From the NCBI RefSeq assembly GCF_007859765.1, contig NZ_SIHJ01000001.1:248767-312766 (forward strand): a DNA stretch of 64,000 nucleotides. Direction: 5' to 3'. The translations under genes were made by a program, and so were the position numbers. The notes under the pieces were generated by a model. That model saw nothing but the letters and a program-made list of their open reading frames with translations. It ran no database searches and was not told the DNA's origin. How positions within the stretch are numbered: position 1 is the stretch's first letter; each line of letters starts with the position of its first letter. This DNA is from Posidoniimonas corsicana (GTDB lineage Bacteria > Planctomycetota > Planctomycetia > Pirellulales > Lacipirellulaceae). Below are positions 7,605 to 52,786 of this stretch, piece after piece.

Positions 7605-8001
7605 GGGAATGTCTCCGGCTTGAGGAGGGTTGCCTGCAATGTGCGACCGGGTCCGTGCGGCAGAGTCGCTCCCCGCCTAGCGCACCACGCTTGCGACGAT
7701 GGTCGTAATCTATTGGAGTTTATCCACGCCACCCGTCGAAATCAATGGATTGTGCACAAAGGCAAGATGGTCCGCTTCATCGAAATGCGTCCAAAGAGCG
7801 AGTTGGGTACTTACTTCGCCGAGGCAGAACCTTGTGCGGCGGACTAGCTTGGTGAAGAGCGTGACGAACTCGTCACAATCCCATGAGTCCGAACCGCGAT
7901 TTGAGCCGTCGAACCGATGGAAGCAGCGACGGCCCCCGAGGCAGCGATCGGACGATCCGCTGGAATCCGTTGCAGAAACGCAACTTAGAGAGAGATCAAA
8001 G
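7605..8001. other. Gene-free upstream region of the glycan cluster
   Basis: No plausible gene on either strand. It should hold the promoter for the DUF5695-like gene on the minus strand. It is more AT-rich in parts (7700-7850) than its surroundings. No clear hairpin or operator was seen. Confidence 0.4.
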
Positions 8002-8075
8002 TAGCGGAGGAGGGACTCGAACCCCCGACACGCGGATTATGATTCCGCTGCTCTAACCGACTGAGCTACTCCGCC
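8002..8075 (-). tRNA. tRNA-Met(CAT), elongator type (tRNA-Ile2 not excluded)
   Basis: The minus strand folds as a complete cloverleaf: acceptor GGCGGAG/CTCCGCT (last pair G-U), D arm GCTC..GAGC, anticodon stem GCGGA/TCCGC with loop ATCATAA, T arm GGGGG TTCGAGT CCCTC. The anticodon is CAT. Lacking the initiator features seen at 52713-52786, it is the elongator Met tRNA or the lysidine-modified Ile tRNA. The acceptor and D-loop favour Met but do not decide it. Confidence 0.9.
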
Positions 8076-24845: not shown

Positions 24846-25663
24846 AAGATCAGGTTGTTGAGGTCGGCCCGCGGGGGCAGCCGCAGCTGGTACGCGGCCC
24901 GCACGTTGGGGACCACCAGCTTGCGGGAGGCGACGGTGACCGTCTTGGTCCGCTTGATCAGCTGCAACTGGTCGCCGCCCTGCAGGTTGAGCGTGTCGCC
25001 CAGGAACGTGTAGCTGAACCCGGCGTCGTAGCCGAAGCCGAGCTGCGCGGCGTAGCTGGCGTCGTCGCGTTGCTGGATTGACGCGGCCACCAGGCAGACC
25101 GACCCCGCCGGCCTGCCCTGGAACGGGGCGCTGTTCCACGCCCCCGGGTCGACGCACATCGCCTGGATCAGCGAGATGTAGGTCCCGGTCCACGCCGTGT
25201 TGGGGATGATGAACCGCACCGTGTCCGCGATCGACGGGGGCGTCACCAGCACGCCGCGGTGCACGTACTCCGAGCCCTGCCAGTCGAAGCCGACCAGGTC
25301 GTCGGGCAGGTCCGGCGCAACCGACGGCGCCTTTGCAACCGGCGCCCCGACCTCGTACCGCTTCGGCTTCGCGCGGAACTGGAAGCCCCGGATCTCGGTC
25401 GCCGCCTGCAGCGGGGTCAGGTACCGCAGCCGCCGGGAGTAGCTCAGCGAGACCCGCCAGTAGTGGTCGTTGATCTGCTGGCGCGAGAGCGGCCCGGCGT
25501 AGGCGCCGTCGATGCTGGCCGGGGCGACCGCCAGCACGGCCGCCATCGCGGCCGACTCGCTCACTGTGGCGCCGCCCGGGTCCGCGTCGTCCTCCACCCA
25601 GTAGGTCCGCGACGGCGCCTCCTCGGAATCGTTGATCAGTTCTAGGGTAGCGACCGCGCTCAT
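24842..25663 (-). CDS. Phage minor tail protein, unknown
   Basis: 273 residues, joined to both neighbours by 4 bp ATGA overlaps, so tightly coupled in translation. It immediately follows the tape measure, where distal tail or baseplate hub proteins lie in siphophages. No motif was recognised; the C-terminal part (LGDTLNLQGGDQLQLIKRTK) looks like a beta-rich structural domain. Confidence 0.78.
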   Translation of the reverse strand: MSAVATLELINDSEEAPSRTYWVEDDADPGGATVSESAAMAAVLAVAPASIDGAYAGPLSRQQINDHYWRVSLSYSRRLRYLTPLQAATEIRGFQFRAKPKRYEVGAPVAKAPSVAPDLPDDLVGFDWQGSEYVHRGVLVTPPSIADTVRFIIPNTAWTGTYISLIQAMCVDPGAWNSAPFQGRPAGSVCLVAASIQQRDDASYAAQLGFGYDAGFSYTFLGDTLNLQGGDQLQLIKRTKTVTVASRKLVVPNVRAAYQLRLPPRADLNNLIL

Positions 25664-27291
25664 TCGTTCGTGACCGAGAGGCCCTCCTTCTTCTTGAGCT
25701 CGTCCTTCGTTTGCTTCTGTTCGGACAGCTGCTCGCCCAGCAGCTTCTCCATGGCGGCGGTCTGCTTCTCGATCAGGTCCGGCATCCGCTTGAGGGCCTC
25801 GATCGCGTCAGCCTCGGGTCGGTTCATTGAGTCGCTGAAGAACCCCTCGCGACCGGTCTGCCCGTACATCGCGGCGCCCAGCCCCAGCACCATATTCGAG
25901 AGACCCACCCCCGTCGCCGCGACGGGGCTGGGCATTGTGTTCGAAAACTCTGCCACGCCTCTTTGGTAGACGCCGTCGGTGATCAGCCGCCGCGCGGCCA
26001 GCGACTCCGTCTCCAGCGACGCCTGCGCGTCGGCCGACCGCTTCAGCCGCGCCGCCTCGCCCAGCGGGTCGACGAACCGCGTCTTGCGGTCGATGGCCGA
26101 GCGGTCGAAGTTGGCCCGGTTGACGCTCCCCAGCACCTGCTGCAGCAGCGGCAGCTGGTTCTCCAGGTCGGTGTACGCGCGGACCGCCTCCTTGCGGCCC
26201 AGCCCGCCCTGGCTGGGCGACTTCAGCAGGTCCGCCACCGACAGGTTCTTGCTCTTGAGCAGCCGCACCCGCTCGGTGATCGACTTGCCCTCGAACTCCT
26301 CCACCTGCGCCGTCGACGACAAGAACGACCGCAGCGCCGTGGCGCCAACGCTGGCCGATCCGGTGGAGGTCGCCAGCAGCGCCGTCGCCGCCAGCGTCTC
26401 CTCGTCGGAGATCCCCAGCGCCCGCGCGGTGCCGCCCGGCAGCGACGCCGCCTCCAGCAGCTCCTCGACGCTGGCCGGCGAGTAGGCCGACGCGGCGAAC
26501 GCCTTGCTAGCGATCTGCACCGCGTCGCCCGTCTCGTCGCGGCCGAACGCCGCCAGCTGCGTGCGGATCGCCCGCGCGAAGGTCCCCAGGTCCGGCACGA
26601 CGCCGCGGGCGCCCAGCTGCAGGAACAGCGCCTCCGCCTCCTCGTTCAAGAGGCCGGCGGAGCTGAGCGAGAACACCGCGCCCGCCGCCTCGCCCTTGGT
26701 CTCGGTCGCGCCCGACAGGTACAGCCGGTTCGCGGCGCCCTTGAGCTGGTCGAACTCGGCCTGCGAGTCCGCCAGCTGCCGCAGCTGGCCGATGCTTGCC
26801 CGGCTCTCCAGCACGCCCTCGCCGCTCTTGCGGATCGAGGACTCGATCTCCTGGTAGCCCTGCCGGATCGTCGACATGAAACTGACCGCCGCCAGCAGCC
26901 GCGGCCCCCACCCGGCGATCGCATCGCCGAAGCGGTTAGCCGAGTCCTCCATCTCGTCCATGCCGTCGGTGGTCGACCCGGCGAACTTCTTGAACTGCCC
27001 CTCGTTCTGCTTGTAGTCCTGCTCCAGCTTGCGGATCGCCTTGCCGTACTGCTCGGTCGAAAGCTTGTTCTGGTCCCAGCCGCGGTAGATCTCGCTCCGC
27101 AGTCGCTTGAACCGCTGCTGCTGCGTCTCGATGTCGCGGATGATGCGGTTGGCGGCGGCGCTCGAGACCTTGGCGGCCTTCGCGAACTCGTTGTTCGTCT
27201 CGTCCTGCGAGCGGCGCAGCTTCTCGTTCTCGCTGAGCGCGCCCGACGCGTCGCCGCCGATCCGGAAGTTGATGCCGTCGCCGCGAGCCAT
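25660..27291 (-). CDS. Phage tail tape measure protein (TP901-like)
   Basis: 543 residues. The N-terminal 130 residues are helical and charged (KAAKVSSAAANRIIRDIETQ, KLEQDYKQNEGQFKKFAG), as expected of a coiled-coil tape measure. The middle matches TP901-type cores, with repeated Ala/Ser helices (GTARALGISDEETLAATALL). A hydrophobic stretch (VAATGVGLSNMVLGLGAAMYG) could insert in the host membrane during DNA ejection. It sets tail length; 543 residues imply a short to medium tail (about 80 nm at 0.15 nm per residue). It starts 1 bp after the stop of the frameshifted chaperone, the canonical position. Confidence 0.9.
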   Translation of the reverse strand: MARGDGINFRIGGDASGALSENEKLRRSQDETNNEFAKAAKVSSAAANRIIRDIETQQQRFKRLRSEIYRGWDQNKLSTEQYGKAIRKLEQDYKQNEGQFKKFAGSTTDGMDEMEDSANRFGDAIAGWGPRLLAAVSFMSTIRQGYQEIESSIRKSGEGVLESRASIGQLRQLADSQAEFDQLKGAANRLYLSGATETKGEAAGAVFSLSSAGLLNEEAEALFLQLGARGVVPDLGTFARAIRTQLAAFGRDETGDAVQIASKAFAASAYSPASVEELLEAASLPGGTARALGISDEETLAATALLATSTGSASVGATALRSFLSSTAQVEEFEGKSITERVRLLKSKNLSVADLLKSPSQGGLGRKEAVRAYTDLENQLPLLQQVLGSVNRANFDRSAIDRKTRFVDPLGEAARLKRSADAQASLETESLAARRLITDGVYQRGVAEFSNTMPSPVAATGVGLSNMVLGLGAAMYGQTGREGFFSDSMNRPEADAIEALKRMPDLIEKQTAAMEKLLGEQLSEQKQTKDELKKKEGLSVTNE

Positions 27292-31123: not shown

Positions 31124-32122
31124 TCAGTCGGGGTTGGCCTGGCCGTGGATCAGGATCAGGCGGGCCGCCTCGGGGTGCCAGATCTTCCTGCCCCAGTTGG
31201 CGCGGCGCCGCACGCGGCTGCCGGCCACCTCCGGCTTCTCGTAGCTCTCCGCCCAGACGCCGATCCGGTCGCCGTCCACCACGCCCATCGGCGACCACAC
31301 CGGGGAGCGGCCCAGGCAGACCTCCGCCGGGTCGTCGGTCTGGGCGATGTACGCCATCACCGCGACGCCCACCGGCCAGATCCGCGACAGGTTGCGCGTG
31401 TTGCCGGTGTTCTTCAGCGAGTTGGCGACGATCACCTCCGGGATGTCCAGCGCCTGCGCCAGGTTGGCCGCGTTGGCGTTCAGCGAACCGGGGCGGGCGT
31501 CCTGGAAGTTCTGGTTCTTGATCCGGCCGAGCGTGTCGTCGGCGTTGAGCGCCGCCCGCATGTCCGACCGCGCCAGGAACAACGCGTTGGGCTCCTTACC
31601 GAAGTCCAGGAAGAACGCCTCCCGCTCCGCGTCGATGTTCGCGTACGGCGCCGCGCTGGCGGCGTTGAGCCAGCTGGTCAGCCCGCCGGTGGTCCGCGAC
31701 GCGGCGTAGTTCGCCGGGGTCGTGAAATAGCTGACCACGTCGATCTCGAACGCCCGCAGGATGCACTCCTCGATCAACCGGCTGACGCGCGCCTCCGCGT
31801 CGGTCAGGTCGTCGTACCGCTCGAGCGTCTCGTCGTCGATCTGCGACTCGAGGCCCTTGGACTGCGTGTCGTACGAGTCGCTGGAGTACTCCAGCGTCAT
31901 CAGCTTGAACGACCCGTCCGGGTTGCGGTTCACGTCGATGTCCTGCATCGTCTCTTCCAAAGGCAGACGCGGCACCTTGCCCGCCTTCTTGTCCTTGGGC
32001 ATCGGCGGCAGCAGGCGGTGGCCGACGTAGCCGGCCTTGTTCATCTCGAGGTCGAACTCCTCGATCGTCAGCGACAGGTCCTCGCGGACGTCGAAGTCCG
32101 CGTTGACGGGGTTGGCGGCCAT
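31124..32122 (-). CDS. Phage major capsid protein (lambda gpE / HK97-fold type)
   Basis: 332 residues with an AAGGAGA ribosome site. The sequence shows the layout of lambda-E-like coat proteins: N-terminal arm, E-loop region (VPRLPLEETMQDIDVNRN), a long helix around DDLTDAEARVSRLIEECILR, and an A-domain near the C-terminus (VWSPMGVVDGDRIGVWAESY). It follows the decoration protein and protease/scaffold genes as in lambda. It forms the icosahedral shell. Confidence 0.85.
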   Translation of the reverse strand: MAANPVNADFDVREDLSLTIEEFDLEMNKAGYVGHRLLPPMPKDKKAGKVPRLPLEETMQDIDVNRNPDGSFKLMTLEYSSDSYDTQSKGLESQIDDETLERYDDLTDAEARVSRLIEECILRAFEIDVVSYFTTPANYAASRTTGGLTSWLNAASAAPYANIDAEREAFFLDFGKEPNALFLARSDMRAALNADDTLGRIKNQNFQDARPGSLNANAANLAQALDIPEVIVANSLKNTGNTRNLSRIWPVGVAVMAYIAQTDDPAEVCLGRSPVWSPMGVVDGDRIGVWAESYEKPEVAGSRVRRRANWGRKIWHPEAARLILIHGQANPD

Positions 32123-32612: not shown

Positions 32613-33077
32613 CTAGCCCGGCAGCACACCGCGGATGAACTGCCGCCGCGCCTCCTCGCCGTGCTCGCGCTGCACGCGGCGGCACGCCTCGCGGTAGGTA
32701 ATGCCTTTTTCTTTGGCCAGCGTGCGGGCGACGGCGCGGAAGTCGGTCGGCGTGTCGGCGTCGGCCGCTTCGCCCGGGCTTCCCTTGGGCAGCGACGCGC
32801 CGCGGCCGCTCTTGGCGGGCTCGGTCTTCTGGGCGGGCTGCTGCGCCTGCTCGGCGGCCTTCTCCGCTTCCGCCTTGGCCTCGTCCCGCTCCTGGCGGGC
32901 CTGCTCGGCCTGCTCCTCCTGGAACTGCGCGTAGGCGACCGCGGCGTCGGCCATCGTCGCGCCCGCCTCGGTCTGCTCCTCGCGCCACTCGGCGGTCGAC
33001 TTCGGGAACGTCTTCTTGAGTTCCGCGGTGCTGGCCGGCTTCGGCTCGGCCGCCTGCGGGGTTGCTTGATCTGCCAT
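32613..33077 (-). CDS. Nested in-frame scaffold protein (Nu3-like)
   Basis: Inside the protease gene, an ATG at 33077 is preceded by GAGGAGCCAGCC, a strong ribosome site 6 nt away. In the same frame it would make a 154-residue Ala/Glu-rich coiled-coil protein equal to the protease C-terminus. In lambda, Nu3 is made this way from within gene C. Ribosome site and position are seen; expression is inferred. Confidence 0.68.
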   Translation of the reverse strand: MADQATPQAAEPKPASTAELKKTFPKSTAEWREEQTEAGATMADAAVAYAQFQEEQAEQARQERDEAKAEAEKAAEQAQQPAQKTEPAKSGRGASLPKGSPGEAADADTPTDFRAVARTLAKEKGITYREACRRVQREHGEEARRQFIRGVLPG

Positions 33078-33911
33078 GGCTGGCTCCTCGGGGGAAGAAA
33101 GGGTCGCCGAGTCGTTGCCGGCGGGGTTGGTTGACTTGCTTTGCACGCCGTCGTGCAGCCGGGCGGCGAGCGCCTGCTCCGCGTACCAGCTGCCGCCGTT
33201 GGCCACCTCGGCCAGCGCCGCGCCCGACAGGCCGCGGAACGCGGCGACGTCGCCCCGGAACGCGGCGAAGATGAACTCGACCCGCTCCCGCAGGTGAGCC
33301 CTCTGCTCCGCGGTGACCGGCAGACCGGGGTAGCCGATCCCCTTGAGCGGCCCGGTGGTGATCTCGACGGGCTCCACGCCCAGCTTCTCGTACAGCTTGC
33401 TGCTGTCGTCCAAGCGGGCGTACACGCCGATCGATCCGATGATGGACCCGGCCGACGCGGTTAGCTTCTCGGCCGTGGTCGCCAGCCAGTAGGCGGCGCT
33501 GCAGCACAGCCCGTCGGCGTGCGCGGTGAGCGGCTTGGCGGCGGCGAACTCCCGCGCGGCGGCCATCAGGTCCGCGTGCCCGGCGACCGTCCCGCCCGGC
33601 GAGTTGAGCAGCAGCACCCCGATCTGGATCTGCTCGTCGGCCGCGGCGGCGCGGAGCGCGGCGGCCAGCTCGGCCGTGCCGACCTCGCCCGGCCACTCCG
33701 CCTCGGGGACCATCACGCCCTCCACGTGGAACGTGGCGACGCCGTTCCGCTGCTCGACCCGCAGCTCGTCGGGCCCTTCGAACGAGAACCCGAGCAGGGC
33801 CGCGTTGGTGACGTGCTTCACCAGCGCGTCGTGCTCGACGCACAGCACGTCGCGGTTGAATCGGGCGAGCGCCTGCTGCGTCGCGGCAAGCTCCTGGGCG
33901 GCGTCAGGCAT
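32613..33911 (-). CDS. S49-family prohead protease fused to scaffold domain
   Basis: 432 residues. The N-terminal half is SppA/lambda-C-like: LLLNSPGGTVAGHADLM, the nucleophile Ser region GLCCSAAYWLATTAEKL, then ASAGSIIGSIGVYARLDD. The C-terminal third (about 290-432) is Ala/Glu/Lys-rich coiled coil, typical of a scaffold. It would mature the procapsid and be degraded or expelled. It overlaps the portal gene by 8 bp. A separate scaffold start inside this gene is listed next. Confidence 0.87.
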   Translation of the reverse strand: MPDAAQELAATQQALARFNRDVLCVEHDALVKHVTNAALLGFSFEGPDELRVEQRNGVATFHVEGVMVPEAEWPGEVGTAELAAALRAAAADEQIQIGVLLLNSPGGTVAGHADLMAAAREFAAAKPLTAHADGLCCSAAYWLATTAEKLTASAGSIIGSIGVYARLDDSSKLYEKLGVEPVEITTGPLKGIGYPGLPVTAEQRAHLRERVEFIFAAFRGDVAAFRGLSGAALAEVANGGSWYAEQALAARLHDGVQSKSTNPAGNDSATLSSPEEPAMADQATPQAAEPKPASTAELKKTFPKSTAEWREEQTEAGATMADAAVAYAQFQEEQAEQARQERDEAKAEAEKAAEQAQQPAQKTEPAKSGRGASLPKGSPGEAADADTPTDFRAVARTLAKEKGITYREACRRVQREHGEEARRQFIRGVLPG

Positions 33912-35550
33912 CGGCGGCCTCCTGCGCCGGGTCGGCGCTCATCGTGATCTGGGTCCGGTCGCCGATCGGGCCCGGGGCGTAGCGGCTGGCCCACCGCTCG
34001 ATCACCTCCAGCGGGGCGTCCTTCTGGCCGATGCTCGCCAGGTCCGCGATCGCCTGCTGGACGCCCAGCATCCAGTAGTCGCGGTTGCCGGTGACCACGC
34101 GGCGGGCCTGCTCCTCGCCGGTGCGGTCCAGCTGGCGGGCGATCGTGTCGCGGTCCATCACGCCGGTCGCCAGCCCGACGGCGTTGGCCTGCGCGTCCTT
34201 CAGCGCGTCGACCGCCGGCCAGCCCGGCAGCGTCCAGCTGTGCCGCAGGAAGTTGAACCGGTCCGCCTTGGGCCGGCGGCGGCGGGCCTCGCGGTAGGTC
34301 CGCTCGCGGTAGCGGGCGACCGACGCGTCCTCGTCCGCCCAGCGGTGCAGGTAGTGCTCGACCACCGGCGTGTGCCACATGCCGGCCAGCCAGCCCTGCG
34401 CGTCGCGGAACGCCTCGCGGGCCTCCACCAGCGCGCCGCGGTAGCCGTGGAAGTTGGTGTCGGCCGTGTCGAGCATGATCAGCACGTACGGCACGCCCAG
34501 CGCCACGCCCATGATCCGCAGCACCAGCCGCATGTGGTCGAACCACTCGTTGGCCGGGATGTTGGCGCTCAAGAGGTCGATCTGCTCGCCCGGCAGGCCC
34601 TGCAGCTCGGCGCCCGGGTACAGCTCCTCCAGCAGCCGGGCGACCTCGGTCTCCTGGTCGGACTCCACGCCGCTGCGGAGCCGCTTGCCCAGCATCTTGG
34701 GGTTGAAGTCGACGTCACGCTGCCGCTTGAGCAGGAACATGTTGGCCAGCTGCTGCTTGACCAGCTGCTGGAACTGCTGGTCCTCGAACATGCCGAGGTA
34801 ATCGAAGATCGGCGCGAAGATCGACACGCCGCGGGTCTGCGTCACCCGCTTGGGGTCGCGGAGGTGCAGCACGTTGGGCGTCTTCCAGTCGCCGTCGATG
34901 CTCTCCGCCTCGACGAAGTACAGGTCCTCGTGCTTGACCGACGGGCTCAGCGGGCTGATCGGGCTGTGGGTGAAGTGGTAGCCGACGCGGCGGCGGTCCT
35001 CGTCCAGCTCCACGCCCAGCACGTTGTTCCTGTGCTTGACGCCGCGGATGCGGGGCTGGCGGCACTCATGCGCCTCGCGGGTCGCCAGCGGCCCGTCGGC
35101 GGTGAACACGCCGAACGCGTCGCCCGCCGCGTACGTGTCGCGCAGCACCATCCGCGTGAGCTGGGCGAACGTGTACTGACCCTGCACGTCGATCCGCTTG
35201 GGGTCGGCCAGCAGCTCGTCGATGTACTGCTTGGCCTCCGCGTCGAACTTGGCGTCGCCCGTGTTGGGGTGGTAGTCGAACCCCCGCTGCGTCACGTTCT
35301 TGACCAGCACGTCCAAGAGCCGCGAGCCGATCGGCGTGTTGCGGTCGTACTCGCGGCCCAGCTCGCCCACCCACAGGTGGTCGCTCTGGTTGCGGAAGTG
35401 CCAGTCGGCGCCGGAGCCCTGTGAGCTGATGCCCCGGGGCTTGGGCCGCAGCTTGGTCTGCCGCTTGCTCGCCCGGTAGTCGCACTGCTCCCCGTGCGCG
35501 CTGCTAAGCGCTCGGGTGGCGGACGTCGACGGGGTCAGCGTGCGGGGCAC
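33904..35550 (-). CDS. Phage portal protein (lambda gpB family)
   Basis: 548 residues. Typical lambda-type portal: N-terminal DHLWVGELGREYDRNTPIGS, FAQLTRMVLRDTYAAGDAFG, a central EDLYFVEAESIDG region, the RLVLRIMGVALGVPYVLIML helix, and SWTLPGWPAVDALKDAQANA near the end. It forms the dodecameric DNA gate and tail-attachment vertex. It shares one base with the gpW-position gene upstream and overlaps the protease gene downstream. Confidence 0.93.
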   Translation of the reverse strand: MPRTLTPSTSATRALSSAHGEQCDYRASKRQTKLRPKPRGISSQGSGADWHFRNQSDHLWVGELGREYDRNTPIGSRLLDVLVKNVTQRGFDYHPNTGDAKFDAEAKQYIDELLADPKRIDVQGQYTFAQLTRMVLRDTYAAGDAFGVFTADGPLATREAHECRQPRIRGVKHRNNVLGVELDEDRRRVGYHFTHSPISPLSPSVKHEDLYFVEAESIDGDWKTPNVLHLRDPKRVTQTRGVSIFAPIFDYLGMFEDQQFQQLVKQQLANMFLLKRQRDVDFNPKMLGKRLRSGVESDQETEVARLLEELYPGAELQGLPGEQIDLLSANIPANEWFDHMRLVLRIMGVALGVPYVLIMLDTADTNFHGYRGALVEAREAFRDAQGWLAGMWHTPVVEHYLHRWADEDASVARYRERTYREARRRRPKADRFNFLRHSWTLPGWPAVDALKDAQANAVGLATGVMDRDTIARQLDRTGEEQARRVVTGNRDYWMLGVQQAIADLASIGQKDAPLEVIERWASRYAPGPIGDRTQITMSADPAQEAADA

Positions 35551-36133: not shown

Positions 36134-39100
36134 CTATATGCTCAAGAATAGCTGCTGTAGATCGGCGGCGCCGATAGGTTTCACAAGGTGCTTGTCGAAG
36201 CCCGCCGCTTTGGACCGCTGCCGGTCTACCTCCTGGCCGTTGCCCGTGACGGCGACCAGAGTGATCGTTTTTCCCCAGGGCTCGGTCCGGATCCGACGCG
36301 CTGCTTCACACCCGTCGAGCACCGGCATGTGCATGTCCATCAGCACAACTTGCGGGCGGAAGTGCGCTGCTTCCTCGACAGCTTGGAGTCCATCGCTTGC
36401 CTTGCGGACGTCATTGCCGAATTTCTGGCAAAGCACGCTTAGCAGGTGCGCTGCGCCTCGGTTGTCATCGACCACCAGAACTCGGAACCCGAAGTCGGTT
36501 GGCAGCTCCTCGATATCCGCTTCGCAATCTCGCTCGTTCTCGGCAGCAGCGTAATCGGCTGGGAGCGGAAGCCGAATGCGGAACTCACTGCCTGCGCCCG
36601 CGCCTTCACTTTCGACCTCAACGGTTCCATCGTGCATCTCAACCAGCGTCTTCACCAGCGTCAAGCCGATCCCAAGTCCCGCGTGGCCGTTCTCTACTGA
36701 TCGTCCTCCCTGGTCGAACATCTCAAATACCTGTTGCTGCAAATCCGCCGGGATCCCGACGCCAGAATCCTTGACGCTGCCGATTACTTCGCCATCACCG
36801 ATGGTGCATGTTAGATTGATGCTTCCCCCAGGCGGCGTGTATCTGGCCGCATTGGTCAGCAAGTTCGAGAAGACTTGAGCCATCCGATTTGGGTCGACGT
36901 CCAGCCAAGTGGGCGTGTTGGGTAGCGTCACCGTGAGCCGGTGACTCGCCTCTTCTATTAGTGGAGTCGAGGCTTCGACCGCGCTACGCACTACTTCATC
37001 CAACCTCACCCTGGCCCGGCGTAAGTTAAGGTTGCCACGCGTGATCCGTGAGACGTCCAGTAGGTCGTCGACTAGCGCGATCAGCTGCAACGTCTGCCGC
37101 TCCATCACTTGGCGCGTCGCCTCCGAAGCATCTGGGTCATCCTTTGATAGTCGCAACAACTCAAGACCGGTCCGGATCGGAGCGAGCGGGTTGCGGAGTT
37201 CGTGCGCCAGGGTCGCCAGGAACACATCTTTGCGGCGGTCGGCTTCTGCAAGTTTAGCGGCGATTTCTTGCAGTTCCTCCCGCATCCGGCGTTGCTCTGT
37301 GACATCCATCAGGGTCCCGTCAAAGCTAGTCACGCGGCGGCCCCGCTCACCGTCCTCAAAGCTTGCGCGCCCCTTCGCGTAGACCCAGCGGATCTCTCCA
37401 TTGGGATGAATTACGCGGTATTCTTCCGCATAGGTTGTAGGGTCGGTTGGAGAGGTGGCGGCCGCGATCGCATCAATCACTCGTTGACGATCATCGGGGT
37501 GGAGAGCGGCTACAGCCTCCTCGTAGCTAATGGGCTGATCCTGTCCTTGGAAGATAATGCGGAACCGCTCGTCAGTGGTGAGTTGGACGCTAGAGGGGTC
37601 TATGTTCCAAGTGCCGAGCTCAGCTGCTTCCAGAGCCAGGTGCAGCCGCTCTTCGCTGTCCAGCAGCGCTTCTTCAAACTGTTTGCGGTCGGTGATATCC
37701 ACCACAACGCCCGGCATTCGTACGGCCTGTCCGGCGGCGTCTCGTTCGACCCTCCCTCGGGCGATCACCCAGCGAACGCCGGAATCGCCGACCGCGAGCC
37801 GGTATTCAGTCTCATAGGTGTCTCCTCCTTCGAGCGACTCTTCGACCGCGGTGATCACCCTTTGCCTGTCGTCGGGATGTATCGAACCGAGAAAGGCCGA
37901 AAGTGATTGGCCGTTGGAATCGTCGACAGAAATGCCAAACATTCTCGCAAGGTTCAGATCGGCCCTCACGACATCGTTGATCGGATCGAATTCCCAGGTT
38001 CCTACTTCGGCGGCCGAGAGGGTTGAATCCAAGCGGGATCGGGCCTCTTGCAACTCTCGCTCGATCTCGAGTTTCTCAGTGAGATCGAGCATAGATCCCA
38101 CCATGCGGATCGGCTTGCCCTGCTCGTCACGGAGCACTCGGCCTCGGTCGAGCAGCGATGCGAAGCCGCCGTCCGCTCGCTGGAAACGGTACTCTTCGAG
38201 CCAAAGGTCGTTGCTGCCACCGATGACAGCGTGGATGCTGTCCACGACTCGCTGGCGGTCGTCGGGGTGGATGTGCTCGGTCCACCAGGTGGCGTCTTCG
38301 CCAACCTGCATCTCAGAATACCCGAAGCGGACTTGCACTCCTTCGTTCCAGGTGACCTTGTTGGTTGCGAGGTCCCAGTCCCAGATCGCGTCGTTGGCCG
38401 CCTGGCCAACCATCCGGTACCTCAATTCGCTCTCGCGGAGCGCGGCGTCTGCCTCTTTGCGCTGCAAGAACTGAGCGACTTGCTCTGCGAGCGGCACAAG
38501 GCCGCTAAACACCACGTCAGAAAATGCCTCGCGGCCAAACATCGCAATGACGCCTCGCACCCGACCTTCGGCCAGCAGCGGGTATCCAGCGAATGAGACC
38601 ATGCCTTGCTCGGCCGCCCATTCAGCATCACTGACGTTTGGGTCGTTCGGCACGTCGTTTGTCAGATGGGGCTGCTGGGTGGCTGCTATGCGACCGATCT
38701 TGAGCGCACCATACTGGACGCGGCTGTGAGGTCCATCAAGGTGCGTGTACTGACCAGCGCTTGCCTTGAGCACCAGATCGCCTTCCGGTTGGTCCATGGT
38801 CCAGATGCGGGCGAACGCTACTCCGAGGTGCTCCACCAGCGCTTCGCAACAGGACTGCAACGCCGTAGAGGTTTCCTCCCTCAGAACTAGGGAGGTGCTG
38901 ACATCGGCTCTCACAGCGACCAGCCGCGTCCGTTCAGCTGCCTCGGACTCGGCGCGTTTGAGAACGGTGATGTCCGTGTTAGCGCCGATCCATTCTCGAA
39001 CGTTTCCGTCCTCCCCGAGAACCGGAACTCCGCGCACCGACATCCACCGGAACTTTCCGTCGTGCCGCAGCACACGGTACTCGATGGTGTAGATGCTCTT

Positions 39101-40441
39101 GTCACGCACGGCTCGCGACCAGACTTCGGCCGTTCGCTCGCGGTCCTCAGGATGGATCGCGTTCAGCCAGCCCAACCCCTTCCACTGCTCGAACGTCTGG
39201 CCTGTGTACGCGCGCCAAGAAGGCGAGTCCTCGATCGTGTGGCCATCCGGGTTGGTGGTCCACACAATCTGTGAGGTAGCGGTCCCCAGCGCTCGGTATC
39301 GTTCTTCGCTGTGCCGGATGCGAAGCTCGGAGTCACGCCGCTGCGTTGCATCCCGGAAGACCAACACGCACCCCACCACAGTCCCGTCGGTATTGCGGAT
39401 GGGCGAGGCGCTGTCGTCGATCGGCAACTCTCTGCCGTCCCGCGCGAGGAGAACGGTGTGGTTAGCCAAGGCCACTACACAGCCCTCACGGAGGGCCGTT
39501 ACGGCAGGGTTAGCCTCTTCCTCCCGGGTTTGCTCGTTGACGATCCGGAAGATCTCTTGCACAGGCTTGCCGTGAGCGTCATGCCCCGACCAGCCGGTGA
39601 GTTGTTCGGCGACAGGATTCAAACTCGTGACGCGTCCCTTCTCATCAGTCACGACCACCGCGTCGCCTATGCATGAGAGAGTGACCCTCAGCAACTCGGC
39701 TTGCTCACGCTCCTTCCGCAGTTCGATCAGCTCTCTAACCAGAACCTGGGCAGTCTCGCCGTCGCTCTTGGTGGAGTCGTCCAACACGCACTTGGCCAAA
39801 GCCTCCTGAACGTTGAGCAGCTCAGAAATGTCGCGTTCGTGTTGAAGCTCGGGGTGCACCTTCGTCCAGAAGTGTGCCGTCCTTACGAACGTAAGGAATA
39901 CCAGCAGGTACTGCAGGTTGGTTTCTCCACAGGCGTAGCGGAGCACTTCGAGACTCCTGGCGGCGTCTTCGTTCTGCAGGAACACATGGGAACAGCATGC
40001 AAACAACGCCTCCTCGGCGAACGACTCGGCGTCGGGAAACGTGTCGAGCGGAGCTTCACACGAACGAAAGAATTCCAGGTAGGGATCGAGCTCTCGGCCC
40101 CGAGGCAAAGGGCGTCGAATCAACCGTACGACTTCCTCGATGGTCTCGGGCGGGCAGTCGCGGTCGCCCGCGGGTCGGCCGAGACCAACCAGGAACCCAA
40201 CGTGGCGGGAGATACAGTACCGAACATCACAGAACTGAGAGAGGTAGACGAACAGCCGTTCCTTGAACGAAGACGGGAGCGGGTTGTCGAGGTAGCCGAA
40301 CTTAGCAAAGCCCCACAGGTTCCCGGTAATCTCCGGTGTGTCTGGGCCCAATTGGAAGAAGTTGGGCAATAGACCAAACCGATCGGCAACTTCCTGCTGC
40401 AAAGCAGTTGGGCAAACGGTCGCTTTTCGTTCCTCACCCAT
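36134..40441 (-). CDS. Hybrid histidine kinase with AhpD-like N-domain, five PAS and one GAF
   Basis: 1435 residues with GGAGGG 6 nt before the ATG. Domains by eye: AhpD/carboxymuconolactone-decarboxylase-like, about 10-200 (FKERLFVYLSQFCDVRYC, ISRHVGFLVGLG); PAS at about 245-370 and 375-500; GAF at about 510-660; PAS at about 675-800, 805-930 and 935-1060; HisKA with phospho-His in LATLAHELRNPLAPI; HATPase_c with NLLTNAARYTPPGG and HAGLGIGLTLVKTL; C-terminal receiver with Asp in VVLMDMHMPVLDG and Lys in KHLVKPIG. No transmembrane segments, so cytoplasmic sensing. It lies in the phage late region in the same orientation, but with more ordinary base composition than the GC-rich phage genes and with host-type repeats on both sides. 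Signal and target are unknown. Confidence 0.93.
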   Translation of the reverse strand: MGEERKATVCPTALQQEVADRFGLLPNFFQLGPDTPEITGNLWGFAKFGYLDNPLPSSFKERLFVYLSQFCDVRYCISRHVGFLVGLGRPAGDRDCPPETIEEVVRLIRRPLPRGRELDPYLEFFRSCEAPLDTFPDAESFAEEALFACCSHVFLQNEDAARSLEVLRYACGETNLQYLLVFLTFVRTAHFWTKVHPELQHERDISELLNVQEALAKCVLDDSTKSDGETAQVLVRELIELRKEREQAELLRVTLSCIGDAVVVTDEKGRVTSLNPVAEQLTGWSGHDAHGKPVQEIFRIVNEQTREEEANPAVTALREGCVVALANHTVLLARDGRELPIDDSASPIRNTDGTVVGCVLVFRDATQRRDSELRIRHSEERYRALGTATSQIVWTTNPDGHTIEDSPSWRAYTGQTFEQWKGLGWLNAIHPEDRERTAEVWSRAVRDKSIYTIEYRVLRHDGKFRWMSVRGVPVLGEDGNVREWIGANTDITVLKRAESEAAERTRLVAVRADVSTSLVLREETSTALQSCCEALVEHLGVAFARIWTMDQPEGDLVLKASAGQYTHLDGPHSRVQYGALKIGRIAATQQPHLTNDVPNDPNVSDAEWAAEQGMVSFAGYPLLAEGRVRGVIAMFGREAFSDVVFSGLVPLAEQVAQFLQRKEADAALRESELRYRMVGQAANDAIWDWDLATNKVTWNEGVQVRFGYSEMQVGEDATWWTEHIHPDDRQRVVDSIHAVIGGSNDLWLEEYRFQRADGGFASLLDRGRVLRDEQGKPIRMVGSMLDLTEKLEIERELQEARSRLDSTLSAAEVGTWEFDPINDVVRADLNLARMFGISVDDSNGQSLSAFLGSIHPDDRQRVITAVEESLEGGDTYETEYRLAVGDSGVRWVIARGRVERDAAGQAVRMPGVVVDITDRKQFEEALLDSEERLHLALEAAELGTWNIDPSSVQLTTDERFRIIFQGQDQPISYEEAVAALHPDDRQRVIDAIAAATSPTDPTTYAEEYRVIHPNGEIRWVYAKGRASFEDGERGRRVTSFDGTLMDVTEQRRMREELQEIAAKLAEADRRKDVFLATLAHELRNPLAPIRTGLELLRLSKDDPDASEATRQVMERQTLQLIALVDDLLDVSRITRGNLNLRRARVRLDEVVRSAVEASTPLIEEASHRLTVTLPNTPTWLDVDPNRMAQVFSNLLTNAARYTPPGGSINLTCTIGDGEVIGSVKDSGVGIPADLQQQVFEMFDQGGRSVENGHAGLGIGLTLVKTLVEMHDGTVEVESEGAGAGSEFRIRLPLPADYAAAENERDCEADIEELPTDFGFRVLVVDDNRGAAHLLSVLCQKFGNDVRKASDGLQAVEEAAHFRPQVVLMDMHMPVLDGCEAARRIRTEPWGKTITLVAVTGNGQEVDRQRSKAAGFDKHLVKPIGAADLQQLFLSI

Positions 40442-40905: not shown

Positions 40906-42375
40906 CTAGGAATCAAGCGGCTCGAACGCGATCCGCGCGCGACCGACGCGGAACTCGCGCAGGTAGCCCTCGGCCGCCAGCGTGCGGAGCGACTTGAGGG
41001 CGTGCGTCGCCGAGCGGCCGGTGCGGCGGGCGACGGCCGCCGCGGTGACGCCGCCCCGCTCGCGGGCGATCGCCAGCGCCTCCCGCTCCGCGTCGCTGAG
41101 GCAGAACGGCCGCGGCCTGGCGGCCAGCATCGCGTCTGCCTGCGCGCGATCCATCGCTGGGCCGACGTAGACGAACCCGCCGGTGATGCGATCGCGGGAG
41201 TTGGCCGCGTTAGCATGCAGCCCCTGCGACTCGCACCACTTGGCCAGGATGCCGGTCTTGGTCGACGGCGCGTGGCCGTGCCGCGTGCAGGCCCACAGCG
41301 GCGACGCGGCCCGGTAGCGGATCATCCCCGGGTGCCCGGTAGTCGAATAGACCCGCATCCCCTGCGAGGCGTAGAGGCTCGCGCAGTACTCGCTCAGCCG
41401 GTTGCCGATGCCCACGCCCTGGTAGTCGGGCAGCACCACCGTGCGGTGCTCGCGCATCGCCTTCCGCGCATTGCCGCGGATCATGGCCCGCCACCACGCC
41501 GAGAACGCCACCGGCTCCCACACGCCCGACGGCTGCGGCCAGAACGCGCAGAAGCACTGCGCGGCCCGCTGGATCGACGTGTTCAGATAGTGATGCCGCC
41601 GAAACAGCTCCCAGGCGCCACGGTGGACCGGAGCGACCTGGAGCTCAATTGCCGGTCGCCCGTCGGGGAAACGTCGAAGCCGCCCCCTTGCCAGCTGCTG
41701 GCTGCTCATGTCCAACACCCAGTCCGGCTCGAGCCAGTCGAGCACGTCGTAATGGCAGGTGACCGCGACGAACTTCTTGTCGGCGCCGAAGCGGTCTTTG
41801 CGGAGGCTCTTGGCGATCGCCGCCGAGCCGATCTTGGCGACGGTCCGGTCGACCACACTCGTGAACTCGTCGAACGCCACCAGATCCACCGGGGGCGTTG
41901 CGACCGCCCCACGGGCGTCGCCGCGCGGCCGGGTCGCAACCGGCCCGCTGGAGCAGAGCAGCGCCCGGGCCAGGTCGCAGCGGAACCGCTCGCCGCCCGA
42001 CAGCACGTGGTGCGGCTTGACCCACGCCGGCGGGCTGCTGAAGCCGACCGCGTTGAGCGTCTGCGTGACGGTCTTCATGCTGTGCCCGGCGAACTGGTCG
42101 CAGACCGCCTTGGCCTTCTCCCAGCGGAACCCGCCCTCGCGGAACCGCTTGCCGTACACGTCGCGGGCGACGGTCGTCTTGCCGCTGCCCGAGGGGCCGA
42201 CGATCACGCCGATCCGCCAGGGGCGGCCGTCGATCAGCTCGTCGTCGGCGGGCACGTCCACGACGAACGTCTCGCTGGCGGTCTTCTCCGGCTTGAGGTC
42301 GAACATACCACGCACCTGGTCGACGGCGAAGCCGGCGGGCACGGGGCAGCTGACGGTGATCTCGTGTTCTGGCAT
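40906..42375 (-). CDS. ABC-type ATPase fused to GNAT acetyltransferase and winged helix
   Basis: 489 residues from the ATG at 42375, preceded by GAGGAG. First domain: ABC ATPase with Walker A (GPSGSGKTTVARDVYG), signature LSGGERFRCDLARALL and Walker B VDLVAFDEFTSVVD. Second: GNAT acetyltransferase with substrate segment FRRHHYLNTSIQRAAQCFCA and the acetyl-CoA loop DYQGVGIGNRLSEYCA. Third: C-terminal winged helix (GVTAAAVARRTGRSATHAL). It resembles COG2401-type 'ABC ATPase fused to acetyltransferase' proteins. No membrane domain exists, so this is not a transporter. It shares one base (TGATG) with the nuclease-like gene upstream and lies in a packaging-side cluster with a ParB-like gene. The acetylation target is unknown. 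Confidence 0.88.
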   Translation of the reverse strand: MPEHEITVSCPVPAGFAVDQVRGMFDLKPEKTASETFVVDVPADDELIDGRPWRIGVIVGPSGSGKTTVARDVYGKRFREGGFRWEKAKAVCDQFAGHSMKTVTQTLNAVGFSSPPAWVKPHHVLSGGERFRCDLARALLCSSGPVATRPRGDARGAVATPPVDLVAFDEFTSVVDRTVAKIGSAAIAKSLRKDRFGADKKFVAVTCHYDVLDWLEPDWVLDMSSQQLARGRLRRFPDGRPAIELQVAPVHRGAWELFRRHHYLNTSIQRAAQCFCAFWPQPSGVWEPVAFSAWWRAMIRGNARKAMREHRTVVLPDYQGVGIGNRLSEYCASLYASQGMRVYSTTGHPGMIRYRAASPLWACTRHGHAPSTKTGILAKWCESQGLHANAANSRDRITGGFVYVGPAMDRAQADAMLAARPRPFCLSDAEREALAIARERGGVTAAAVARRTGRSATHALKSLRTLAAEGYLREFRVGRARIAFEPLDS

Positions 42376-42749
42376 CAGAACTCCTCGCGGTTGAACTCGC
42401 CTCGGTTGCGGCTGCCTCTCGCCTCGGTGTAGCCGGCGAACACGAACTCGGGGTACTGCTCGGCGCAGACCTTGATCTTGATGCGGGTGTGCTGCTCCCA
42501 ACCGCCGGAGCCCTTTACGTCCACGAACTCGACCAGGCCGTCGGCGCGGTTGACCATGAAGTCGGGCGTGTAGAAGGTGTTATTCGCCAGACGGAACTTG
42601 ACCGCCTCGTACCGCCAGGACTTGACCTCACCGGCCGCCTTGAGCGTCCACAGTACGTTCTGCTCGAACCGCTTCTCGGTGGCGTTCATGCGGCCGGGCT
42701 CTTTGGGCGGCCGCCAGCGGGCTTTCGTCACACGGTCAGAACGCGGCAT
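42375..42749 (-). CDS. Small DUF1064-like putative endonuclease
   Basis: 124 residues from MPRSDRVT at 42749; longer starts overlap the ParB-like gene heavily. The core TPDFMVNRADGLVEFVDVKG has the D...E-x-x-D-x-K pattern of PD-(D/E)xK nucleases and resembles phage DUF1064 proteins. It may process phage DNA. It overlaps the ParB-like gene by 22 bp and is coupled to the ABC/GNAT gene by TGATG. Family assignment is tentative. Confidence 0.7.
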   Translation of the reverse strand: MPRSDRVTKARWRPPKEPGRMNATEKRFEQNVLWTLKAAGEVKSWRYEAVKFRLANNTFYTPDFMVNRADGLVEFVDVKGSGGWEQHTRIKIKVCAEQYPEFVFAGYTEARGSRNRGEFNREEF

Positions 42750-43378
42750 CTCCAACCCTTCTTGCTGAGCAGTTCGTGCACCTCGCGCTGCTGGTCCTCG
42801 TCGTCGCAGTCGACCACCACCTGGTAGGTCTCCGCCACACCGACATTCTTGGGGTCTTCCAGGCCGACGTCGACCAGGTCGACCAGCAAGAGCTCGTCCC
42901 ACGCGCTGCCCAACTCCTCGGTCGCCTCCGGCTCGACCTCGAACAGGAACTGCGACAGGTCCTCGGTGAACCTGCCCTGCGTCTTCTGATTGTTGGCCGC
43001 CACGTTGGCGGTCCGCTGCTTGCCCTTCGACCAGTCGACCACGCGGACGGTGAAGGCGTGAGTCGCATCGACGCGGATGATCCCCAGCTCCGCCTCGGCG
43101 TCCAGCACCTCGATCGGCTGGTCGCCATACTCCGCGCGGATCTGGCTCATCCGCTGGTGGCCGCAGACCAGCTCGCCCGTGCGGCGGTTGTAGACGATGC
43201 CCGACAGGTCGCCGAACCGCTTGAGGCTCGACCGCAGGCCGGCCGCCCCCTCGTCGCTGATGCTGCGGGGGTTGGCCGCGTCGGCCTGCAGGTCGGCCGT
43301 GTCGTCCAGCACGAACGCGGCGGGCGCCGCGGCCGGCTTGCTAGCCGCTTTTTTGCGGCTGACTTTTTTCTTGGCCAT
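42728..43378 (-). CDS. ParB/Srx-domain protein
   Basis: 216 residues. A Lys-rich N-terminus (MAKKKVSRKKAASKPAA) precedes a ParB N-terminal-like domain: ANPRSISDEGAAGLRSSLKR, GDLSGIVYNRRTG, and the nucleotide-binding GHQRMSQIRAEYG. The C-terminal part (SQFLFEVEPEATEELG, TYQVVVDCDDEDQQREVHEL) is typical of the phage-borne versions. Such proteins may hydrolyse nucleotides, nick DNA or assist packaging. It lies between the terminase and ABC/GNAT genes. Confidence 0.85.
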   Translation of the reverse strand: MAKKKVSRKKAASKPAAAPAAFVLDDTADLQADAANPRSISDEGAAGLRSSLKRFGDLSGIVYNRRTGELVCGHQRMSQIRAEYGDQPIEVLDAEAELGIIRVDATHAFTVRVVDWSKGKQRTANVAANNQKTQGRFTEDLSQFLFEVEPEATEELGSAWDELLLVDLVDVGLEDPKNVGVAETYQVVVDCDDEDQQREVHELLSKKGWRCRVLTV

Positions 43379-43789: not shown

Positions 43790-46003
43790 CTATCGTTGGG
43801 TGGCCAGAAACTTCTGATCGCCGGGCGTGCGGACCGGCTCACGCGCCGCGCGGGCCGGCGGCGTTGGCTCGTCACGCGGCAGCACGTTGATGGGCAGGTC
43901 GAGCACCGACGCCGCCACCAGGCTGTAGTAGTCCGCGTCGCCGAAGTGGTTGGGGCGGCGGGCCTTGTTCTCGAACACGATCACGCGGCTGCGGCCGATG
44001 ACCGGCTTGCTGATCCGCTCCTCGGCCACCAGCTGCTTGGCGTACTCGCGCAGCTGCCGTTTTTCTTCGCGCGTGAACGCGTTGAAGCTGCAGCCCGCGC
44101 CGTCCTCGCCGATCGGCGTGTCGCCGTAGCTGGTCCGCAGCAGCTGCTTGAAGTGGTCGGAGTTGGCGATCGCGTAGCTGGCGGGGTTCTCCGCGCCGGC
44201 CTGGGCGAACTTGTGCGCGTGCTTGGCGCTGCGGCGGATGTGCACCTGCTCGCCGGCCCACAGCACGCGGTTAGGGTCCTTGCGGCCGCCCAGCCGCTGG
44301 GGGTGGCTGTAGCTGCCCTTGCCGGGCGGCTCGCTCTGGCCGCGGCCCAGCACCATCAGCCAGCCCGCGCCGCCCACCTGGTCGTTCTTGAGCAGGTCCA
44401 ACAGCGACAGCCAGACCAAATCCTCCTGCTGCTTGCCGAGCTCCTTGCCCTGGTAGCCGCCGTCGGCGCACCGCAGCGTGACCGGCAGCCGGCCGGCCGC
44501 CTCGTTGCCCCAGATGCCGTAGCCCATGTTAAATCGATTGCTGAGCTCCGCGAACGCCTTGGGCAGCGCCTTCTTGATGCCCAGCTGGTCGGTCTCGACC
44601 GGAGCCTCGCCCAGGTCGATAATCCGGTGGTTCACGCCGGCCGGGGTCTCGTAGAACGCCCGCACCACGAAGTGCAGCCACCGCTTGCCGACGTCGACGC
44701 CGGCCACGATGCCGACGGTCTGCGGCGGCGCGTACCGCAGTGGAATCGTCCGCCGCCAGTCGGTCGCGGGCGAACCGGCAGGGTGCGCCCGCTCCACGAT
44801 GTCGCGGACGTACAGCTGCGACACGGTGAACACGTCCGGCTCCGCCGGGATGGTCCACGCGTGCTGACGCCGCTCGAGGTCCTTGTCGTCCGGGTTGCGG
44901 GAGTAGAGCGCGAGCCACTCCTCCTCGGCGATGTTGGCGCAGGTCCAGAACCGGTTGTGGAACGCGTTCCAGGTGAAGCCCAGCCGGTTCGTGGGGACCA
45001 GCTCGCCCTCGACCAGCGCGGCGCCGTCGGTCCCGATGCGGACCGACTGGCCGCGGCCGACCGGGACCAGCCGCTCCAGCATCGCCTGCCGGTCCGCCTC
45101 GCTCCACGACCGCCGGCAGTCGGGGCAGCGGAAGTGCCCGGCCCGCTTCGCCGCCTCGACGTCCTTGGCGTCCTCCACGCCGTGGAAGTCATCGCGGCCG
45201 GGGCAGACCAGCCCGCGGCAGTGCACGCACGACACGTGCAGCTTGTGGTTGGTCGACTCCTGGATCTCCAGCCAAATGCGGCCGGTCTCCTCGGTGACGG
45301 TGCACTCTTCGTAGCTGAACGCCTGGTTGGTCGCCTGGTAGGCTTTGGTGCGGTTGTCGATCTGCTCGGGCGGAGACGACTCCCGCGACACGGCGCCAGG
45401 CGTGTCGTAGCGGTCCACCTCCGTCTTGAAGACTACGTGGACCGTGAAGTTGGAGCGGTGCTTGTCCTTCCCCTCGCCGCTGATGAACCGCAGCGTGGCG
45501 CCGTTCTTGAACCTGATCAGCGACGGCGTGCCGCCCTTGGAGCCCTCGCCCGACTCGGGCAGCATCTTCCGCAGCTCCGGCGACGCCATGATCACCGGCA
45601 GGAACTCTTGGTGCCACTTGTCACGGGCCGACTGGTCCAGGTCCGGCACCGCGTAGCCGACGTCCTCGCCCCGCTCCAGCAGGTGCCACAGCACGCAGAT
45701 CACGCCGACAAAACTCTTGCCGCTCTGCACGCACCCGCTGAACCGGTACTTGCGGTGCGGCAGCTCGTCCATCAGCCGCAGCACGGTGGCGCAGTAGGGC
45801 TGGAACTCCGGCCGCCAGTTGAACCCCTCGTGCGGCCCCTCCGGCAGCACCACGCACGCGCGGGCGAACTCCCGCCGCGAGCGGATGCGCCGGCCGCGGG
45901 CGATGCGGGCGAACCGGCGCACCTCCCGCGCCAGCGGCCGCCGCCAGTAGGCGGGTTCAGCCCGCTCCGAGCTGTTCGAACGCGGCGTCGACGTAGCCTT
46001 CAT
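43790..46003 (-). CDS. Phage terminase large subunit (GpA family)
   Basis: 737 residues. The packaging ATPase has the P-loop-like GCVQSGKS (about 90-97), a YAVPDLDQSARDKWHQEFLP region and a zinc-ribbon-like CVHC...CPDC pair near the middle, as in GpA-family terminases. The nuclease domain follows with VGIVAGVDVGKRWLHFV (RNase-H fold, Asp). It cleaves and translocates phage DNA. The start overlaps the small-subunit gene by 47 bp, as lambda A and Nu1 are closely spaced. Confidence 0.94.
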   Translation of the reverse strand: MKATSTPRSNSSERAEPAYWRRPLAREVRRFARIARGRRIRSRREFARACVVLPEGPHEGFNWRPEFQPYCATVLRLMDELPHRKYRFSGCVQSGKSFVGVICVLWHLLERGEDVGYAVPDLDQSARDKWHQEFLPVIMASPELRKMLPESGEGSKGGTPSLIRFKNGATLRFISGEGKDKHRSNFTVHVVFKTEVDRYDTPGAVSRESSPPEQIDNRTKAYQATNQAFSYEECTVTEETGRIWLEIQESTNHKLHVSCVHCRGLVCPGRDDFHGVEDAKDVEAAKRAGHFRCPDCRRSWSEADRQAMLERLVPVGRGQSVRIGTDGAALVEGELVPTNRLGFTWNAFHNRFWTCANIAEEEWLALYSRNPDDKDLERRQHAWTIPAEPDVFTVSQLYVRDIVERAHPAGSPATDWRRTIPLRYAPPQTVGIVAGVDVGKRWLHFVVRAFYETPAGVNHRIIDLGEAPVETDQLGIKKALPKAFAELSNRFNMGYGIWGNEAAGRLPVTLRCADGGYQGKELGKQQEDLVWLSLLDLLKNDQVGGAGWLMVLGRGQSEPPGKGSYSHPQRLGGRKDPNRVLWAGEQVHIRRSAKHAHKFAQAGAENPASYAIANSDHFKQLLRTSYGDTPIGEDGAGCSFNAFTREEKRQLREYAKQLVAEERISKPVIGRSRVIVFENKARRPNHFGDADYYSLVAASVLDLPINVLPRDEPTPPARAAREPVRTPGDQKFLATQR

Positions 46004-52670: not shown

Positions 52671-52712
52671 GACAGGGAGGCTCCAACGGGCGGGACGGGC
52701 AGCGGAAACAAG

Positions 52713-52786
52713 TGGCCCCGGCTGGATTCGAACCAGCGTCCTCCAGGTTATGAGCCTGGCGAGATACCCAACTTCTCCACGGGGCA
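52713..52786 (-). tRNA. Initiator tRNA-fMet(CAT), atypical
   Basis: The cloverleaf matches initiators: unpaired position 1-72 (T.C), A11-T24 pair (D stem GAGA/TCTC), loop CTCATAA with anticodon CAT, T arm GCTGG TTCGAAT CCAGC. The anticodon stem is CCAGG/CCTGG, so only two of the usual three G-C pairs below the loop are present (A29-T41 replaces one). Its 3' end faces the phage genes; its 5' end abuts a terminator, leaving no room for its own promoter. Confidence 0.85.

Follow-up and report, generated by a model that had tools for sequence, protein, structure and literature searches.

An ABC ATPase-GNAT fusion encoded near a phage terminase in Posidoniimonas corsicana: a putative acyltransferase of phage DNA

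The stretch analyzed here (the window) comprises 64,000 nucleotides of Posidoniimonas corsicana (contig NZ_SIHJ01000001.1 of assembly GCF_007859765.1, positions 248,767 to 312,766), from a genome totaling 6.77 Mb, and holds a prophage whose genes, as annotated with Pfam and PHROGs, run on the minus strand from roughly 52 to 21.6 kb. Within this prophage, one small gene downstream of the terminase, three genes encode a ParB-like protein, a nuclease-like protein, and a fusion of a soluble ABC ATPase, a GNAT acetyltransferase, and a winged helix. The domains, gene partners, and genomic position of this fusion and its relatives (collectively, ABC-GNAT) point to a role in modifying DNA.

The fusion and its adjacent genes

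The three genes with overlapping ends that had been read from the sequence are present on the minus strand, with coordinates refined as follows:

40906 to 42375, minus strand: ABC ATPase-GNAT-winged-helix fusion, 489 amino acids (aa), phrog_11143 family
42175 to 42198, minus strand: Walker A of the fusion, GPSGSGKT, residues 60 to 67
41980 to 42003, minus strand: ABC signature, LSGGERFR, residues 125 to 132
41863 to 41889, minus strand: Walker B with the catalytic Glu170, VDLVAFDEF, residues 163 to 171
41746 to 41757, minus strand: H-loop, CHYD, residues 207 to 210
41584 to 41595, minus strand: N-terminal HHYL motif of the GNAT part, residues 261 to 264
41404 to 41436, minus strand: acyl-CoA (coenzyme A) binding motif A, VLPDYQGVGIG, residues 314 to 324
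40909 to 41100, minus strand: C-terminal winged helix, residues 426 to 489
42375 to 42749, minus strand: PD-(D/E)xK nuclease-like gene (TPDF ... EFVDVKG), 124 aa, DUF1064/phrog_190-like
42728 to 43378, minus strand: ParB/Srx-like gene with a GHQR motif, 216 aa, from PHROGs
42731 to 42832, minus strand: conserved C-terminal tail module of the ParB-like protein, residues 183 to 216
43790 to 46003, minus strand: GpA-type terminase large subunit (Pfam, PHROGs), given for context

The start of the fusion overlaps the stop of the nuclease gene by 1 base (TGATG), and the nuclease and ParB-like genes overlap by 22 bases. The most likely start of the fusion is the ATG at 42375, the longer open frame up to 42501 being probably untranslated, and the nuclease gene most likely extends over 42375 to 42749.

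Pfam, PHROGs, a structural model, and Foldseek agree that the ABC ATPase, acetyltransferase, and winged helix are joined in one protein. The ABC_tran match reaches 28.8 bits (Pfam cut-off, 25), the GNAT (PF13508; 20.2 bits) and winged-helix (PF09339; 20.1 bits) matches fall under their cut-offs, and residues 17 to 409, spanning the ABC and GNAT parts, place the protein in phrog_11143 (E = 1.3e-86). The AlphaFold model (mean pLDDT, 87.9) has ABC, GNAT, and winged-helix parts, with Foldseek matches to SufC and other ABC ATPases as well as to GNATs. Walker A, the signature, the Walker B glutamate, and the H-loop are all intact and are invariant or near-invariant across 51 aligned proteins; likewise, across 50 aligned GNAT domains, the CoA-binding motif, intact in the fusion, is near-invariant and Tyr263 of the HHYL motif is invariant. 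An assembly error, which could have produced such a fusion, is set aside by three viral contigs (L005, L006, and L007) that are 55 to 62% identical to it and whose alignments continue into the winged helix (to residues 480, 470, and 484); that of L014 runs to residue 460, and those of the remaining viral relatives stop at residue 423 or earlier. ATPase and GNAT are separate neighboring genes in two Streptococcus phages.

The assignments of the two smaller genes, originally described as a D..ExxDxK protein and a ParB/Srx protein, hold in part: the PD-(D/E)xK residues are present and PHROGs recognizes a ParB, while Pfam scores are under the cut-off or absent. The nuclease-like protein scores 23.9 bits against DUF1064 (PF06356; cut-off, 24.7), and the PHROG that it matches best bears the name Holliday junction resolvase. 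The ParB-like protein has no ParB family match in Pfam at E ≤ 1; it matches phrog_620 (ParB) at E = 1.8e-13, and its best PHROG is phrog_9353, of unknown function (E = 1.9e-15). Three relatives of this protein (L089, L087, and L091) match ParB_N (PF02195) at E values of 1.4e-5 to 7.3e-4, under the cut-off.

A defense or counterdefense role, also raised in the original prediction, finds little support: PADLOC returned weak matches only (for the fusion, 36 bits to mad3 and 15 bits to mad8; for the ParB-like protein, 23 bits to a type II methyltransferase), and we dropped a known defense system as the identity of the locus.

Genes that recur beside ABC-GNAT

We surveyed 90 loci, consisting of 80 viral loci (the best 80 of 92 relatives), nine annotated phage regions, and the window, which reduce to 50 nonredundant loci at 70% identity. 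The trio does not behave as a conserved unit: the nuclease-like gene occurs in only 3 of the 90 loci (the window, L007, and L012; 87 of the 90 include upstream DNA) and is a rare extra. The conserved element is a tail of about 35 residues that ends just upstream of the fusion homologue (within 160 bases, or 460 where the nuclease intervenes) in at least 73 of 87 loci (40 of 48 nonredundant), three loci with too little upstream DNA (L006, L014, and L032) being excluded. In 34 loci (7 nonredundant), the tail makes up most of a small protein; elsewhere, it forms the C terminus of a ParB-like protein. As a first iterated ParB profile also caught such short tail-only proteins, tail and N-domain were recounted with a profile each; that for the tail came from nine seeds, and some of the 14 loci that it missed have the tail by eye (L082 and L091), so that 73 is a lower bound. 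The ParB N-domain itself is encoded no farther than 3 kb away in 48 of 84 loci (37 of 45 nonredundant), and the near-constant partner of ABC-GNAT is therefore the tail module; the tail and ParB counts are raw frequencies, uncorrected for how often ParB adjoins unrelated phage genes. An ASCH gene, considered as a further partner, was set aside: the profile places it within 1.5 kb of ABC-GNAT in a single locus of 83, to which Pfam adds L087, with copies farther off in L005 to L007, L021, and L022.

Two kinds of accessory gene also recur near ABC-GNAT, counted in the 83 loci that remain once those with 500 bases or less downstream are excluded. The first is a formyltransferase, found within 1.5 kb of ABC-GNAT in 43 of 83 loci (18 of 49 nonredundant). 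The linkage also holds in reverse: a search with the Komp_PAO1_1 formyltransferase found 25 viral loci, all of which have ABC-GNAT and 24 of which have the tail or a ParB protein. The phage collection contains 64 records matching this formyltransferase, and 18 of the 60 listed also appear in the ABC-GNAT list; many of the other listed records seem, by title, to be bacterial contamination, gut contigs, or cyanophages. Two bacterial contigs (L288, Paenimyroides, and L289, Flavobacterium) carry both genes in the stretch examined, and one viral contig (L010) has two ABC-GNAT genes (1150 to 2109 and 3561 to 4700) with a formyltransferase between them.

A profile of 13 accessory formyltransferases fits best the hydrolase domain of 10-formyl-tetrahydrofolate dehydrogenase (FDH; ALDH1L1), at 142 bits, versus 88 for Met-tRNA formyltransferase, 79 for sugar formyltransferase, 62 for PurN, and 47 for HypX/HoxX. 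Amine formyltransferases need a catalytic Asn (PMC4388273, in the portion available), and this residue of the N-x-H motif occurs in none of 46 accessory open frames (some redundant), which sets the accessory enzymes apart from the amine type (PurN, Fmt, and ArnA); a PurN-like enzyme capping a glycyl amine was dropped on both grounds. Relative to FDH and the N-terminal domain of HypX, the accessory proteins keep the His and Asp, lack the Asn, and are stand-alone phage proteins of about 160 to 215 aa beside a GNAT. FDH passes its formyl group to the thiol of 4'-phosphopantetheine (PMC8748788), and HypX has been proposed to hand formyl to CoA, for which its authors state that direct evidence is lacking (PMC6802093; both sources as far as available). 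By analogy, the product of the accessory enzyme may be formyl-CoA.

The second kind is a pair, found after ABC-GNAT in four phages (L021, L024, L059, and Jace, the last represented by both L023 and L089): an aspartate decarboxylase (PF02261, E = 2e-33; TIGR00223, 94 bits, under its cut-off of 106) and a family III CoA-transferase-like protein (PF02515, E = 2e-8). Searching in reverse yielded Jace, L129, and L130, each of which combines ParB, ABC-GNAT, and the aspartate decarboxylase; in the phage collection, this CoA-transferase appears in the two Jace records only. Its GD motif, which has a catalytic role in family III CoA-transferases, is invariant in all five aligned sequences. Together, the pair could produce beta-alanyl-CoA from beta-alanine.

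The clearest pointer to function comes from 10 closely related Porphyromonas phage records that share a flank. Five (006a, 007a, 008a, 009a, and 011a) carry ABC-GNAT and the formyltransferase next to it, four carry a Mom protein (289 aa; 33% identical to Mu Mom, E about 1e-26), and one has no gene in the slot; 007a was read directly and includes the small tail protein, and the other four ABC-GNAT phages were assigned from match positions. When 007a is compared with 015a, the two flanks show identities of 88.6% and 82.8% as far as the exchange point. Within this group of relatives, ABC-GNAT therefore fills the slot that in others holds Mom, a protein known from phage Mu for DNA adenine modification. 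Mom belongs to the GNAT superfamily (PMC7824862, as far as that text was available) and, like the GNAT part, has an HY motif near the start of its domain; it differs in having no ABC ATPase and, in an alignment of 10 Mom proteins, no visible QGxGxG CoA motif. ParB is paired with a DNA-modifying GNAT once more in Microbacterium phage Antuna (L131, 3469 to 4621), where a ParB-like gene overlaps the start of Mom; by eye, the tail module is absent there. A control set of 33 Mom loci taken from viral contigs, all with listed identities of at least 85% to Mu and so too redundant for a fair neighborhood control, contained no match to ParB, ABC-GNAT, or the formyltransferase.

ABC-GNAT also extends beyond prophages of the kind in the window. 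Below E = 1e-30, phrog_11143 is found in 50 of 59 genomes (that of P. corsicana and relatives); at E = 1e-3, it also matches all 14 control genomes, as expected of an ABC ATPase. Thirteen of 15 cut-outs from these genomes (L176 to L190) have ABC-GNAT followed by one and the same terminase family, and in most of the 15, the terminase is followed by portal, decoration-like, and capsid genes (terminase, portal, and capsid confirmed by PHROGs and Pfam in L178). This cluster terminase occurs in 82 of 117 Pirellulales genomes sampled, as a single match in 71 of the 82, with some matches (e.g., family f15) covering the C-terminal part only; the terminase of the window's own prophage occurs in 3 of the 117. 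Among 56 loci from named genomes (51 labeled planctomycete), 46 of the 47 that extend far enough have ParB or the tail upstream, and 41 of the 45 that extend far enough in the other direction have the large subunit of the cluster terminase (TerL) downstream. By eye, different genera share apparent host genes beside the cluster, such as that for histidyl-tRNA synthetase. Gene order and, in part, chromosomal position are conserved across L176 to L190 and most of L234 to L285, loci from genomes of Pirellulales and further planctomycetes. The packaging cluster looks fixed and inherited, and it is possibly a candidate gene transfer agent or a domesticated prophage; among the matches listed in a literature search for gene transfer agents in planctomycetes, no title reports such a cluster. 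The cluster copy of P. corsicana itself (L176, 8396 to 9900, contig C5) has ABC and GNAT in two overlapping open frames, reflecting either a split or a frameshift.

A putative writer of DNA marks

Our preferred interpretation, which we consider probable on sequence grounds, is that the fusion acts as a DNA base acyltransferase, powered by ATP and supplied by acyl-CoA, and so marks phage DNA. The ABC part would dimerize on DNA upon ATP binding and set a base in the GNAT site, and the ParB-type protein, docking on ABC-GNAT through its C-terminal tail, would bring it to the DNA; the GNAT would then transfer the acyl moiety of acyl-CoA to an exocyclic amine. Phage DNA would probably be marked late, close to packaging, and probably as a shield from restriction. 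Many relatives would obtain their acyl-CoA from a neighboring gene, with the FDH-like enzyme yielding formyl-CoA or, alternatively, the aspartate decarboxylase and CoA-transferase-like enzyme yielding beta-alanyl-CoA; the prophage in the window, with neither supply gene nearby, would draw on a host acyl-CoA, such as acetyl-CoA. Among soil phages, the predicted mark would be beta-alanyl in Rhodococcus phage Jace, formyl in Gordonia phage Yago84, and acetyl in Arthrobacter phage EastWest, in which no accessory gene was found. Among the roles originally suggested by the position beside terminase, a modification of DNA tied to packaging is the best supported. That ABC-GNAT serves as a DNA-modifying enzyme is best supported by its exchange with Mom, although this falls short of proof.

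More tentatively, a single shared DNA acyltransferase may be combined with interchangeable supplies of acyl-CoA, leaving formyl, beta-alanyl, or acetyl marks that differ between phages and have yet to be described, and the same writer may be kept in the capsid and packaging cluster of Pirellulales, which seems to be inherited vertically, perhaps as part of a gene transfer agent; we hold this wider scheme to be possible and the simpler one above to be the safer. If true, it would add base marks together with a modular way of choosing them, and it would place a DNA-modifying enzyme in a widely inherited capsid gene cluster.

Several observations weigh against DNA acylation. Many of the surveyed loci are related to one another. 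The four Porphyromonas Mom proteins are 99 to 100% identical and, among such close relatives, the 5:4:1 distribution may represent one or two exchanges; moreover, the slot is a genome end that may take any cargo, yet all nine filled cases contain either Mom or ABC-GNAT. By hhalign, the match between the GNAT part and Mom is not significant (probability, 2.7%; E = 0.017; 51 columns), and we rejected membership in Mom by sequence; the GNAT aligns better with ordinary host GNATs (probability, 96.5%), a control built from 10 of 12 loci after L149 and L154 were dropped for an unclear reading frame. Mom itself reaches only 3.5% against these host GNATs, and the method therefore has little power for Mom. 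In the structural search, the GNAT is matched best by acetyltransferases of proteins and small molecules. The CoA-transferase-like protein matches the N-terminal half of its family only (profile positions 4 to 109 of 366) and, at about 230 aa versus 366, does not correspond to a whole family III enzyme. Profiles of the formyltransferase, the CoA-transferase-like protein, and aspartate decarboxylase found no match in the window, so that the acyl donor there is a guess. Finally, phage pT24, which has been named in print for predicted DNA acylation, has no detected ParB or tail.

The resemblance to ordinary GNATs, in both profile and structural matches, suits an alternative in which the target of the GNAT is a protein, whether terminase, capsid, or one from the host (e.g., RNA polymerase), with the ABC part as a switch and DNA as a scaffold, and so does the location of the genes near terminase and within the Pirellulales head-gene cluster. 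We regard this as unlikely: Mom is exchanged for ABC-GNAT in the same slot, and neither this nor the linked putative acyl-donor genes would be expected of an ordinary enzyme acetylating proteins, for which acetyl-CoA would suffice. Less likely again is a unit akin to restriction-modification, in which ABC-GNAT marks phage DNA and the PD-(D/E)xK nuclease attacks DNA of the host or of rivals that lacks the mark; the nuclease gene is indeed wedged between the ParB-like gene and the fusion with overlapping ends, but among the 90 loci it was found only in the window and two of its closest relatives, and its best PHROG match carries the name of a Holliday junction resolvase. Least probable of all is that the ABC ATPase is mainly a factor for packaging or DNA-end handling, as its proximity to terminase in the window and in Pirellulales might suggest, with the GNAT as a regulatory remnant, given that the CoA-binding motif is near-invariant and that the Streptococcus phages keep ATPase and GNAT as separate genes.

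Several known or predicted systems come close to ABC-GNAT. NAT10 is an ATPase-GNAT that acetylates cytidine in RNA, and TmcA/NAT10 resembles the fusion in combining an ATPase and a GNAT that act on a nucleobase amine; it differs in its helicase-type ATPase and its RNA substrate, and its GNAT is similar to that of the fusion only in a generic way (Foldseek ranked NAT10 chain 9j3c 47th). For DNA, the prediction of acylation by an ABC ATPase-coupled GNAT reportedly stems from Iyer et al. in 2013. The function of ABC-acetyltransferase fusions, at first described here as not known, is thus already the subject of a printed prediction: PMC7824862, as far as its text was available, has a GNAT coupled with an ABC ATPase carrying out an acyl modification of a DNA base, names phage pT24, and leaves the acyl group uncharacterized. 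Matched by phage name, pT24 encodes a homologue of our fusion (match H37, 33.4% identity) with the same pair of domains. Relative to the available part of that source, the acyl-CoA supply genes, the tail partner, and the exchange with Mom are new, although the 2013 prediction may already hold some of these, and the linked genes name candidate acyl groups for a DNA mark that it leaves undescribed. Among the papers listed in a search on the accessory genes, none looked relevant, nor was the name COG2401 found in the literature searched.

The surrounding prophage

Downstream of the fusion, the prophage continues with recognizable head and tail genes:

33904 to 35550, minus strand: lambda-type portal
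32613 to 33911, minus strand: S49 protease
31124 to 32122, minus strand: major head protein
25660 to 27291, minus strand: tape measure

Between the fusion and the portal lies a gene of 1,435 aa (36134 to 40441, minus strand; PAS/histidine kinase by eye), which, at about 60% GC versus about 70% for the surrounding prophage, looks inserted. Two tRNA-Met genes on the minus strand (8001 to 8075 and 52712 to 52786) flank the prophage region and are a possible attachment-site context. A remnant of a similar prophage exists elsewhere in the same genome (L175, 8866 to 11738, contig C2), in which a 110-residue piece of the fusion (97% identical) is joined directly to the gene that precedes terminase (95%); terminase itself and the ParB region are absent.

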